A stretch of 49,662 bases of DNA from an uncultured Roseburia sp. (GTDB taxonomy: Bacteria; Bacillota; Clostridia; Lachnospirales; Lachnospiraceae). Where the stretch lies: NCBI GenBank assembly GCA_947088345.1, contig CAMUGE010000023.1:1-49662 (forward strand), written 5' to 3'. Shown here piece by piece: positions 37,878 to 43,406 of this stretch. The notes below the pieces were generated by a model, which did not search any database, was not told where the DNA came from, and saw nothing but the letters and a program-made list of their open reading frames with translations. The translations under genes and the position numbers were made by a program. The first letter of the stretch is position 1. Each line of letters opens with the position of its first letter.

Positions 37878-38615
37878 TTGGATTACAGAAAATATCGGCT
37901 TAACAGAAAAGAACAGTTGTTTTGCATGGCCGCATGTATTGCTGTCGGTATCGTAACAGCGCAATTGTTTTATCGCAGTATCTACGGACTGATTGTTATA
38001 CCATTATTGCTGCCGCTTATTTATTGTCTTTATAGAAAGGAAATGCACAGGCGGCAAAAGGAGATGCTTCTGGAAGAGTTTCGGGAGGCGATGCAGTCGG
38101 TATGCGCATCACTCTTGGCCGGATATTCCATGGAAAATGCATGGTATGAAGCCGAAAAAGAACTGGAAAAATTTCAGAAGAAGAAAACGATTCTGGTTAC
38201 AGAACTTCATCTTATCAATGTAAAGGTACGGATGAATCAGCCGTTGGAAGAAGTGCTGGCTGAGTTTGCGCAAAGAAGCGGCTGCGAGGAAATTGAGAGT
38301 TTTTCGGAAGTGTTTTTGTTTGCAAAGCGAAGCGGTGGTGATTTTGCCGGAATTATACGGACAACCGTTCAACGGCTGAATGCCAAAATAGAGGTGGAAC
38401 GAGAGATTAATACGGTTATTTCCGGAAAGCGGCTGGAGGGACGTATTATGAGCGTTATGCCGGCTGCGCTGCTTCTTTATCTGAATATTACATCCGGGGA
38501 TTTCTTAAGTCCACTGTACAAAAACCCGGTTGGCGTCTGCGTGATGACAGTGGCTCTTTTTCTCTATATAGCTGCAATGCTCTGGTCGGAAAAAATTGCG
38601 GATATCAGGATATAA
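37878..38615 (+). CDS. tadB: Tad platform protein TadB (T2SSF family)
   Basis: 245 residues. TTG start after GAGGAGTAGG. Two N-terminal membrane helices (about 13-50), a cytoplasmic four-helix T2SSF domain (FREAMQSVCASLLAGYSMEN; SEVFLFAKRSGGDFAGII), then two C-terminal helices. It forms the inner-membrane platform with TadC around TadA. It is shorter than many TadB proteins (about 300), lacking part of the N-terminus. Confidence 0.88.
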   Translation: MDYRKYRLNRKEQLFCMAACIAVGIVTAQLFYRSIYGLIVIPLLLPLIYCLYRKEMHRRQKEMLLEEFREAMQSVCASLLAGYSMENAWYEAEKELEKFQKKKTILVTELHLINVKVRMNQPLEEVLAEFAQRSGCEEIESFSEVFLFAKRSGGDFAGIIRTTVQRLNAKIEVEREINTVISGKRLEGRIMSVMPAALLLYLNITSGDFLSPLYKNPVGVCVMTVALFLYIAAMLWSEKIADIRI

Positions 38616-40070: not shown

Positions 40071-40253
40071 ATGGGAGAAGTATTAAAACAAGAAGTAAAA
40101 TCATTTTTTCTGGAAGAAGACGGTGTAGGTGTTGTAGAACTGATCCTGATACTTGTAGTTTTGATTGGGCTGGTCGCTATTTTTAAGACCCAGTTGACAG
40201 GAATTATCAATAAGATCTTTAAGACAATCAGTACAAATGCAGGTAAAATCTAA
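40071..40253 (+). CDS. flp: Flp1-type type IVb pilin
   Basis: 60 residues from ATG 40071 (GAGG 6 bases upstream; longer in-frame ATGs lie over tadC). A short basic leader (GEVLKQEVKSFFLEEDG) precedes VGVVELILILVVLIGLVAIF, a single hydrophobic helix with Glu at position +5 if cleaved after DG, as in type IVb prepilins. The mature pilin is about 42 residues, like Flp pilins. It is the predicted pilus subunit and the substrate of the two prepilin peptidases in this operon. Its stop overlaps the next start (TAATG). Confidence 0.88.
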   Translation: MGEVLKQEVKSFFLEEDGVGVVELILILVVLIGLVAIFKTQLTGIINKIFKTISTNAGKI

Positions 40254-41839
40254 TGGGCAGAAAGGGGGCGTTTTGTGGAAGCATAACTGTATTTTCGGCG
40301 CTGAGTCTGATGTTGATTTCATCCTTTCTCTTTGCATTGCTCGAGGCGGGGAGAATCTATGGTCTTTCGGTCGTTTCGGACCGAAAGACGCAGATTGCCA
40401 TAGAATCCGTCTATGCACAATATCAATCGTTGCTGTTTGATAAATATCATATTCTTGGATTAGACGGGGCATTTTCGGGCGAAGTGTTCTCAATGGAGAG
40501 TGTTGAAAATGTGCTTGATTCCTATCTGTGGAAGAATTTACAGGAAAAAGGCAGTATAGATATTTTTCGGTTGCAACCAACCGGTATTGACATTCAGGAA
40601 TATCAGCTGCTCACAGATGGAAAAGGGAAAGTTTTTGAGGAAGCGGTTTCAGCTTATATGCGATCTAAGATGGCAGCTGATGTTGTGGATAAGCTTCTAT
40701 TACAGTACGAAGATATCTCTGATGTGGCAGCTGATACGCAGGTGAATGAAGGTGTAGAAAAAGCAAATGCTGCCATTGTGGAAGCCAAAAGAGCAGAGGA
40801 GGCAAAAGGAGACATAGATCAAAGCGAGGAGTCAAAGATCGAACAGGTCGATACCGACACGGGGGCGGCTTCCGGGGATGTTGCTGCAAAAAATCAAGCC
40901 GGGGCCGGGGATGCTGCCGCAGGAGAGGATCTGGGAGGTGTACAGGAGGATTCGGTGGAAAATCCGCTAGATGTTGTGATGAAACTAAAACAGGAAATGA
41001 CGTTAAGTTTTTTTCTGGGCAGCGATGCCGCACTGTCGGATAAGCGAGCGGATTTATCGGATACGGTATCAGGCCGTAAGTTGCAGCAGGGAACGTCAGA
41101 GGATGCCGTGCATACCTCGCTTATAGACAAATGCCTGATGGCTGAGTATATAGACGAAACATTCAGTGACTATACCAATCCGGCAGAAAGAGGAAAACTC
41201 TCCTATGAGATGGAATATATTTTCTGTGGTCATAACAGTGATAAAGCAAATCTGGAGAGTACGCTCAATCGTCTTCTTTTGTTCAGACAGTCGGCAAACT
41301 TTTTGTATCTGTTAAAAGATCCTGTGAAATGGAAAGAAACACTTGTCGCGGCTACATCGCTTGCAGGATTTTCGGGAAATCCGGTTGTCATAAGGGTGGT
41401 TCAGATTGGCGTTGCAGTAGCATGGGCTTTTGTTGAAAGTATTCTGGACATACGTGCGCTTCTTTCCGGTGATAAGATTTCTCTAATTAAAAGTGCAGCG
41501 GAGTGGACTACAGATACGGAGAATCTTCTCTCATCTGTCGCTTCCGGAGGAAAGGCAAAAAATTGTAATAAGGGACTTTCTTATCAACAATATCTAAAAG
41601 GTTTATTTCTATTAGAAAGTGTAAAAAAACTGGCATACAGGAGCATGGATTTAATGGAAATAAGAATCAGGGAATCCGGATATTCTAATTGCCGTATGGA
41701 TTATATGATACGCAAATCAGTATGTCAGGTATCCTGGAAAGCGGACAGTTTGTTTGGGCGTATGACAGTAATTGGAAAAACGAAATACAGGACAGAAGAA
41801 TATGACATTAACAGGACAAAAAAATTTGGTTATGTATAG
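40253..41839 (+). CDS. DUF5702-like membrane-anchored Tad protein (TadG-like)
   Basis: 528 residues. A short basic N-terminus and one hydrophobic helix (CGSITVFSALSLMLISSF then LFALLEAGRIYG) resemble the TadE/TadG N-terminus. The large external part contains a Glu/Asp/Ala-rich linker (about 165-240) and a Trp/Lys-rich helical region. From memory this is DUF5702, common in clostridial Tad loci. It is probably a minor pilin or envelope component. Start codon overlaps the flp stop; AGGTAA lies 8 bases upstream. Confidence 0.75.
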   Translation: MGRKGAFCGSITVFSALSLMLISSFLFALLEAGRIYGLSVVSDRKTQIAIESVYAQYQSLLFDKYHILGLDGAFSGEVFSMESVENVLDSYLWKNLQEKGSIDIFRLQPTGIDIQEYQLLTDGKGKVFEEAVSAYMRSKMAADVVDKLLLQYEDISDVAADTQVNEGVEKANAAIVEAKRAEEAKGDIDQSEESKIEQVDTDTGAASGDVAAKNQAGAGDAAAGEDLGGVQEDSVENPLDVVMKLKQEMTLSFFLGSDAALSDKRADLSDTVSGRKLQQGTSEDAVHTSLIDKCLMAEYIDETFSDYTNPAERGKLSYEMEYIFCGHNSDKANLESTLNRLLLFRQSANFLYLLKDPVKWKETLVAATSLAGFSGNPVVIRVVQIGVAVAWAFVESILDIRALLSGDKISLIKSAAEWTTDTENLLSSVASGGKAKNCNKGLSYQQYLKGLFLLESVKKLAYRSMDLMEIRIRESGYSNCRMDYMIRKSVCQVSWKADSLFGRMTVIGKTKYRTEEYDINRTKKFGYV

Positions 41840-41851
41840 TATAGGGGGTGT

Positions 41852-41954
41852 ATTGCGGTGTCTCTTTCAAAATCGTTCCAAAATAAAATGAAAGACTCTC
41901 TCCCCGAGAACCACATAACAGATGTGTGTCATACAAGGAAAGAGACACCGCAAT
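41852..41954. repeat. 17-bp perfect inverted repeat across the TadE-like start
   Basis: ATTGCGGTGTCTCTTTC (41852-41868) and its exact complement GAAAGAGACACCGCAAT (41938-41954) flank 69 bp (23 codons). The left arm contains the GTG start codon (41858-41860). The 69-bp segment is open in both orientations in the gene's frame. Either an invertible segment or an mRNA hairpin over the start. Confidence 0.85.
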
Positions 41955-42721
41955 GCATCTGCCGGGAGGGGTCTGTTTCCCTGGAAGCAGCGTTTGTGAT
42001 CCCATGTCTTGTCTGCTTTTTTGTAACAATTTTGTTTTTCTTTCGCGTAATACAGGTACAGCTTGCCATTCAGGAGGCCGCAGACCATACGGCAAGAAAA
42101 TTGGCCGTCTATATGGCTGCCGGATACGAGAAAGAGAGATGGGAGAAGAAATCCGCCGTAAAATTATTACTGACAAAAGAGTTGAAAAAAAGCGGCGTTT
42201 CAGATACTTATCTGAAAGGCGGAGTGTCAGGGATTAAAATTGGCGAATCCGATTGGAGTAAAGAAGACATTTCCCTGAAATTAAAATATCGTTTCCGTTG
42301 TCCAATCCGTTTTTTTGGTTTGTTGGAACTATCGTCCTCTTCTGTGGCTGTAACCAGAAAATGGACAGGGTGGATAGACACGGAAGACAACAGGGATACG
42401 TCCGATCTATGGGTCTATATTGCACGGACTGGGTCAACTTATCATAAATCGGATGACTGCACGCATTTGACGCTTTCCATTCAGTCTGTGGAGGAAAGTT
42501 CAGTAAAGAATTTACGAAACGAAAACGGTGGAAAATATAAAAAGTGTAAATTCTGCGCGAAAGTAAATAACAAGTGGAACCATGTTTACATTACGAACCA
42601 GGGAGACAGATTTCATTATGATTTAAATTGCGGCGGGATTAAAAGAACAGTGAGTAAAATACGTTTAACTGAGGCAGGAGGGCGTAAGCCCTGCAGCCGC
42701 TGTTATCGGGTATCGAAATAA
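41858..42721 (+). CDS. TadE-like protein with two C-terminal CxxC-type repeats
   Basis: 287 residues. GTG start with AGGGGGTG about 7 bases upstream. A ~38-residue cytoplasmic leader precedes GSVSLEAAFVIPCLVCFFVT, a TadE-type hydrophobic segment with the S/T-x-E-A-A motif. The external part ends with two related modules: VYIARTGSTYHKSDDCTHLT ... CKFC (about 182-232) and VYITNQGDRFHYDLNCGGIK ... CSRC (about 241-284); each has H-x-n-C then CxxC, suggesting metal binding. The leader is encoded between the arms of a perfect inverted repeat, so it may be switchable. Probably a minor pilin. Confidence 0.8.
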   Translation: MSLSKSFQNKMKDSLPENHITDVCHTRKETPQCICREGSVSLEAAFVIPCLVCFFVTILFFFRVIQVQLAIQEAADHTARKLAVYMAAGYEKERWEKKSAVKLLLTKELKKSGVSDTYLKGGVSGIKIGESDWSKEDISLKLKYRFRCPIRFFGLLELSSSSVAVTRKWTGWIDTEDNRDTSDLWVYIARTGSTYHKSDDCTHLTLSIQSVEESSVKNLRNENGGKYKKCKFCAKVNNKWNHVYITNQGDRFHYDLNCGGIKRTVSKIRLTEAGGRKPCSRCYRVSK

Positions 42722-42789: not shown

Positions 42790-43212
42790 ATGTGGCAGGA
42801 GGCGGCGTTATTTCTGGTATTGACACTGTTGGCATACCAGGATTACAGGGAAAAGAAAGTAAATTTATTTATCCTTCTGATATCCGGTGCTGCAGGAACT
42901 CTGGCACAGGCAATAGCAGGGCAGTACACAGCGGGTAATTTAATCGCGGGAATCGGAGTTGGCGCTGCGGTATGTCTGTTTTCCGGGGTTACAAGAGGGA
43001 AAATTGGAATGGGTGATGGGCTTGTTATCGTACTTTGCGGCATATTTTTGGGGTTTGAACGAAATATTATGTTGTGTATGGCAGCCATTTATCTTGCAGG
43101 AGCAGCGGCTCTGCTTCTGTTTTTGATGAAGAAAAGAGGGAGGAACTACAGGATGCCATTTGTACCGTTTTTGTGGGCGTCATATGTAGTCAATTTGCTA
43201 TGGAACATGTAA
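42790..43212 (+). CDS. Second prepilin peptidase (A24 family)
   Basis: 140 residues with about five membrane helices. Catalytic Asp motifs YQDYREKKVN (about Asp18) and GMGDG (GxGD, about residue 77) are both present. It lacks the N-methyltransferase domain of PilD, like TadV. AGGAG lies upstream of the ATG. It is the second such enzyme in the operon (the first is at 35122), perhaps specialised for the TadE-like proteins on either side. Its stop overlaps the next gene's start. Confidence 0.88.
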   Translation: MWQEAALFLVLTLLAYQDYREKKVNLFILLISGAAGTLAQAIAGQYTAGNLIAGIGVGAAVCLFSGVTRGKIGMGDGLVIVLCGIFLGFERNIMLCMAAIYLAGAAALLLFLMKKRGRNYRMPFVPFLWASYVVNLLWNM

Positions 43213-43406
43213 CGGGAAGCATTACAGTGGAGGCAGCGCTTGTTATTCCGGTACTTTTGCTTGTCTTTGGAAGTATAATGCAGAAAGGAATTGATCTGTA
43301 TACAGAAACAAAGGAAATGACAGTCGAACAAATGGAAGAAGATGACTGGGACATTGTAAAGGAATTTAACCGGAGAACATTTCTTGAGGAGATTACGGAG
43401 AAATGA
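43200..43406 (+). CDS. Small TadE-like protein
   Basis: 68 residues from ATG 43200, overlapping the peptidase gene by 13 bases. The N-terminus HVTGSITVEAALVIPVLLLV is a TadE/pilin-like hydrophobic segment with G-S-x-T-V-E-A-A; the rest is charged. It has only the pilin-like helix and a short tail, so it may be a minor pilin. No clear ribosome site; coupled translation with the peptidase is likely. Confidence 0.75.
   Translation: MEHVTGSITVEAALVIPVLLLVFGSIMQKGIDLYTETKEMTVEQMEEDDWDIVKEFNRRTFLEEITEK

Follow-up and report, generated by a model that had tools for sequence, protein, structure and literature searches.

RNase III processing stems occur in operons and in rRNA spacers, and in the intragenic invertons and invertible promoters of gut bacteria a short segment lies between brief, exactly matching inverted repeats. 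The stem at the start of the Tad pilus gene tadE described here resembles RNase III processing stems in being long and near-perfect, with a large loop and free sequence, and differs from them in that the tadE start and leader codons lie inside it. With the intragenic invertons it shares a short segment flanked by short exact inverted repeats, whereas it differs from these in having a single orientation among species, in tolerating G-U pairs and in having arms that covary. With regard to coupling by RNA unfolding, the opening of a structure over a downstream ribosome site by upstream translation is an accepted model, with phage f1 VII-IX, MS2 coat-lysis and rpmI-rplT among the named cases (PMC12548453). 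The tadE element likewise places structure over a downstream ribosome site and adjoins an upstream stop codon, but unlike those cases it has a stem of about 20-35 pairs and a mostly coding loop of about 40-240 nt, is present in 49/57 genera despite great sequence turnover, carries a loop motif, and persists after the start codon has left it.

The element was not found in the open-licence papers searched, which also returned nothing on the invertons of gut bacteria, and a search of nine loci against Rfam 15 (matches up to E 1) gave no family match at the tadE element, the only match being a far sub-threshold lncRNA elsewhere in L018. Mechanisms of this kind are known; what appears to be undescribed is the element itself, together with its extension into the gene, its maintenance from genus to genus despite sequence turnover and its loop motif. 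An RNA element at one junction of the Tad pilus operon, kept by the majority of the genera sampled in an important gut family, gives a direct handle on how the Tad pilus may be switched on, and shows how an RNA stem can take in a gene's start codon along with its coding leader.

The inverted repeat at the DUF5702-tadE junction

The window, which is the whole stretch of 49,662 nucleotides analysed here, is contig 23 in a 3.05 Mb assembly of an uncultured member of Roseburia, a genus belonging to the Lachnospiraceae, and its closest relative is contig 36 (32,810 bases) of G032. It contains a Tad pilus operon made up of a TadZ-like receiver domain (27.3 bits, slightly below the cut-off of 27.4), T2SSE ATPase, Flp1-like pilin, DUF5702 gene and tadE, plus genes for an A24 peptidase and an FHA/DUF6382 protein and another TadE-like frame (Pfam). 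The frame starting at 41858 matches PF07811 TadE with 26.1 bits against a cut-off of 22.9, and the small second TadE-like frame (43074-43403, between the A24 peptidase and the FHA/DUF6382 protein) reaches 24.3 bits with the same cut-off. The features of the junction are as follows:

40253..41839, + strand: upstream gene with a DUF5702 domain (Pfam PF18960), TAG stop at 41837-41839
41844..41848, + strand: GGGGG at the stem base, likely a Shine-Dalgarno-like stretch with a putative role only (sequence; relatives' consensus AAAGGCAGGTG)
41846..41868, + strand: 5' arm of the RNA stem, exact part 41852-41868 (repeat, folding, covariation)
41858..42721, + strand: tadE-like gene, 287 codons, GTG start within the 5' arm (Pfam PF07811 TadE)
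41869..41937, + strand: loop, 69 nt, equal to 23 codons of the tadE leader
41896..41905, + strand: loop motif CTCTCTCCCC (near-invariant columns, codon test, sense/antisense counts)
41938..41960, + strand: 3' arm of the RNA stem, encoding leader part KETPQCIC, exact part 41938-41954

A sequence-only reading of the window had described a perfect 17-bp inverted repeat flanking 69 bp, with its left arm on the tadE start codon, and had considered a chance origin very unlikely. This description holds in all three respects: ATTGCGGTGTCTCTTTC at 41852-41868 recurs as its exact reverse complement at 41938-41954 with a spacing of 69 nt, the GTG at 41858 lies within the left arm, and by hand arithmetic only about 4e-4 exact 17-bp pairs at most 150 nt apart are expected in 49.7 kb. 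The repeat extends to 20 nt when one mismatch is allowed (41849-41868 / 41938-41957), and RNAfold, which allows G-U pairs, predicts an unbroken run of 23 pairs (41846-41868 / 41938-41960) and a single further pair outside it. The predicted energy of the stem region is -56.7 kcal/mol (z -4.3), and none of 200 shuffles was as stable. The stem begins 6 nt after the TAG stop of the DUF5702 gene, and its 5' arm holds the end of the ribosome-binding region, the GTG start and tadE codons 2-4. When the entire window was scanned for paired arms at most 420 nt apart, the tadE repeat ranked first with a score of 51.5, followed by a pair scoring 39.5 at 38084 / 38293, within a pilus-operon reading frame that spans 37878-38615.

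A further observation concerns the other end of the protein. The C-terminal half of TadE (42400-42718) contains two VYIT..G..YH....C-like blocks, with paired CxxC motifs in the family consensus, and several Cys and His columns at the C-terminus are invariant across 32 aligned relatives. This pattern suggests a duplicated metal-binding domain.

Distribution of the stem in Roseburia and the Lachnospiraceae

We searched 62 genomes of the genus Roseburia, of which 59 gave a tadE match, and all 59 loci were read. The sequence-only reading had proposed a comparison with related strains; among the Roseburia genomes a stem is present at the corresponding site in 59/59 with tadE. Each genome has 20-24 of the 24 register positions paired, with a longest uninterrupted run within the register of 10 to 24 positions; the register used is the best-scoring one per genome, picked with a mild G-U bonus, and was re-anchored by 8 nt for L017 and L027. 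In each of these genomes the start-codon region pairs with codons that are mostly located 30 nt upstream of an LEAA motif, and the distance from start codon to partner ranges from 74 to 188 nt, and is in frame in 58/59. Alignment A1 comprises 43 of the 59 rows (the 16 excluded mostly have longer loops), and the RNA model made from these 43 rows matches 59/62 genus genomes, with the best match always at the tadE locus and a lower score on the opposite strand wherever that matched (94.5 vs 32.6 bits for the window). Since the model is derived from the same data, its matches show uniqueness within genomes rather than independence; weak second matches elsewhere were seen in G031 C38, G060 C25 and G027 C37 (E 0.06-0.09). 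When duplex energies were compared with 100 shuffles per genome, most of the rows listed had a z below -2.5, and weak values among them were found for L051 (0.0), L060 (-1.8) and L003 (-1.3), with the 3' arm of L051 and L060 falling outside the fixed interval used.

The comparison was extended to 60 Lachnospiraceae genomes, one per genus, of which 57 have a tadE match, and a stem was accepted when it outscored its best shuffle by 8 or more. It was found in 49 of the 57 genera, made up of the window genome, 4/4 model matches (G086, G091, G136, G141), 38/44 parsed loci and 6/8 re-anchored loci, and was not found in the remaining eight tadE genera (G089, G093, G095, G096, G105, G113, G129, G137). 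Two of four further Lachnospiraceae checked also have it. A strict search with the RNA model matches just 47/250 genera, and thus misses many diverged cases. The controls for the family stems were single-base shuffles, 15 to 40 each, and 27 parsed loci of a 29-locus family set pass this control; in that set L082 and L084 were unparsed, and L064 was anchored on the wrong helix. The 67 family helices collected span 22-43 positions, some with mismatches, and include L064, L147 and L148, which as anchored are probably not the element. The longest loop observed, 238 nt in L104 (G123), seemingly contains extra sequence, and the tadE frame there opens behind the loop.

Outside the family, no convincing stem was found in 15 tadE relatives from the class sample, where the best candidate (L157) has a broken helix and scored 33.5, its top shuffle reaching 28.5. 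Two more tadE relatives, which share the order but belong to other families, gave no convincing stem either. By sequence comparison, the element is confined to the Lachnospiraceae within this sample.

Selection as a sense RNA and the question of inversion

The 59 Roseburia genomes and 24 pairs give 1416 cells, of which 1146 are Watson-Crick, 190 G-U, 25 A-C and 55 other; without position -7, where the pair is mostly U-G, there are still 153 G-U against 25 A-C cells. Selection at the DNA level cannot tell G-U from A-C, as each is the other on the opposite strand, and the large excess of G-U thus points to a sense RNA, being sensible for one RNA strand only. The excess in the 67 family helices (223 G-U, 18 A-C) is weaker evidence than the Roseburia count, because the choice of helix favours G-U over other mismatches. 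In A1, 93.4% of the cells are paired and both sides have changed in 19/25 pairs, with a covariation score of 0.497 that was reached by 0/500 shuffles, and slid partners score 0.10-0.19. On the TadE protein tree, the type of Watson-Crick pair changes at least 11, 9 and 8 times at positions -4, -3 and -2, respectively. Even the tadE start codon takes part: it is GTG in 49/59 and ATG in 10/59 Roseburia genomes, and the partner base changes along with it (pair 0 is G-C in 48, A-U in 10 and G-U in one genome). As 14 of the 24 5'-arm positions precede the start codon, tadE coding cannot explain their match. Comparison of the sequences shows that the stem is under selection as a sense RNA.

This is the background against which the two interpretations offered by the sequence-only reading can be compared. 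It had suggested a phase-variable invertible segment switching the N-terminus of the protein, and had given an mRNA hairpin covering the GTG start as the alternative; the hairpin is supported by a stem that covaries and is widely conserved, whereas the inversion is not. An intragenic inverton switching the TadE leader would account for the exact 17-bp arms in the window and for the fact that the tadE frame stays open when the segment is inverted. The latter is true as had been stated, but is unremarkable, since the inverted loop is open in 14/58 genomes (L051, which is out of frame, was excluded), where base-shuffled loops would give 10.2. In 55 of the 59 species the sense orientation gives the better fit to the loop motif and in none does antisense, with four ties, so that a loop better in the inverted orientation was not seen in any of the 59 genomes compared. 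Nor are the arms conserved in the manner of DNA recombination sites in Roseburia, as they diverge with compensation at one orthologous place, and G-U (190) far outnumbers A-C (25). An invertible segment is in our view extremely improbable here, and the locus may serve as a cautionary case for invertons called from inverted repeats alone. Hairpin-templated repair, which would keep the arms complementary without selection, would fit the near-perfect arms of many genomes, but such a mutational artefact would not produce a one-stranded preference for G-U over A-C, would not hold the stem at the same junction in 49/57 genera and would not conserve a loop motif in one sense; we give this explanation next to no credence.

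The start codon, the loop motif and candidate mechanisms

In Roseburia, the distance from the upstream stop to the tadE start is 2 nt in 15/59 genomes, 13-33 nt in 39/59 and larger in 5/59, which means that 54/59 have a coupling-type spacing of at most 33 nt. In the family the upstream stop ends within -33 to +13 nt of the stem base for 57/67 helices, and 53/67 have an in-frame start inside the 5' arm. We lean towards the reading that the DUF5702-tadE junction carries a cis-acting mRNA stem-loop whose arms are the two copies of the repeat, closing tadE unless upstream translation opens the stem. The stem would keep tadE closed to free ribosomes, and a ribosome finishing the upstream gene would open the stem base, with tadE translated mainly then, a form of translational coupling by RNA unfolding. 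Against coupling, the predicted stability of -56.7 kcal/mol in our judgement far exceeds what is needed for blocking initiation, and the sampled sequences of 8/57 tadE genera are without the stem. Coupling is also reported to be lower where structure directly follows the upstream stop (PMC12548453), and on that basis the stem could also act as a brake. Stop readthrough or frameshifting driven by the stem was considered and rejected as a general mechanism, as none of the three frames, taken relative to tadE, is without upstream stops (35, 16 and 8 of the 59 Roseburia genomes).

The structure covers the start in most genomes, but not in 14 (three Roseburia and eleven other genera). Two of the Roseburia genomes, G060 and G079, have a tadE frame that is interrupted within the loop and opens again before its end, with a strong stem, and in G062 tadE is out of frame with the stem still present. 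In G090, G114, G121, G123, G125, G134, G139, G140, G212, G253 and G109, the frame opens in the loop, the 3' arm or beyond, and all eleven have kept a strong stem. The 5' arm of G090 lacks ATG, GTG and TTG in all frames, and 31/31 positions are paired. Frameshifts in metagenome-assembled genomes could mimic some of these cases; G112 looks like one and was excluded from the count, as was G124, in which the sole arm-free start is upstream. In G112 (L129) the tadE frame has no in-frame start across the stem region, possibly through an assembly frameshift. As the genera of G090, G125 and G139 contain one genome each, we used the pair G060 and G079, which are sisters on the TadE tree (100/100) and both start tadE within the loop. 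Between their two stems, both partners have changed at -3 (U-A vs C-G) and at -2 (G-C vs A-U), from which we infer that pairing probably remained under selection once the start codon had left the stem. The persistence of the stem in the 14 cases also means that closing the start cannot be its sole function.

This persistence would be accounted for by the main rival, in which the stem is a processing site for RNase III. The enzyme reads duplex length and processes at duplexes of about two turns or more, and a long stem with free sequence and conserved pairing suits such a mode of recognition. A cut would let the pilin/DUF5702 and tadE parts of the message meet separate fates and, with the start inside the stem, would shut off tadE. 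RNase III alone would leave unexplained why the start codon lies inside the arm in most genomes, and also the conserved UCUCUC motif in the loop. We regard it as unlikely, if far from negligible, as the explanation of the element, and it may act together with coupling.

In A1 several columns of the CTCTCC stretch in the loop are invariant or nearly so, and this constraint goes beyond the protein. A codon test covering the 44/59 Roseburia loops with a parsable motif showed that the Leu codon of the motif is CTC in 38/39 cases (77/1236 Leu codons in tadE bodies), and the Ser codon is TCT in 38/38 (131/1079 in tadE bodies). CTCTC, located near the loop centre, occurs in the sense orientation in 44/59 Roseburia loops, with 2.7 expected and none in antisense, and in 35/64 family loops, with 3.5 expected and two in antisense, leaving 29/64 family loops without it. 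G140 and G212 retain the motif, though it lies outside the tadE frame there. As judged from these sequence comparisons, the UCUCUC loop motif is conserved beyond coding need. It is probably a contact for a factor or an RNA, which would give the junction a second function that is independent of the start.

A further possibility is that the UCUCUC-bearing loop serves, either set free or within the message, as a small regulatory RNA or a protein site, for which the stem would be a scaffold. The CTC and TCT codon choice, the excess in sense over antisense in the family loops and the retention of the motif outside the tadE frame in G140 and G212 all fit this possibility, but the motif is missing from the 29 family loops, there is no Rfam family match in the nine loci searched, and a recurrent partner was not found among the 41/59 loci that were long enough and had the motif, and we consider it improbable. 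A tentative proposal combining these elements, which we rate as rather unlikely in its entirety, is a Lachnospiraceae-wide Tad-pilus RNA switch, in which a factor or RNA binding UCUCUC would choose between an open stem and a closed or RNase III-cut stem, with a core function independent of the tadE start. If this were true, the minor pilin would be set post-transcriptionally, with an open stem allowing TadE to be made and the pilus to be assembled, and a closed or cut stem turning tadE off.

Finally, we considered whether the loop motif might act as a decoy by pairing with the 3' arm, since arm and motif change together in a few Roseburia rows, but this is not claimed here, as other genera combine TCTCTC with different arms. 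The rows concerned are L018, L023, L024, L025, L043, L045 and L050, which have TCTTTT rather than TCTCTT in the arm and CTTT or CTTTTC as loop motif, and these joint variants may reflect either shared descent or an alternative pairing with the 3' arm.
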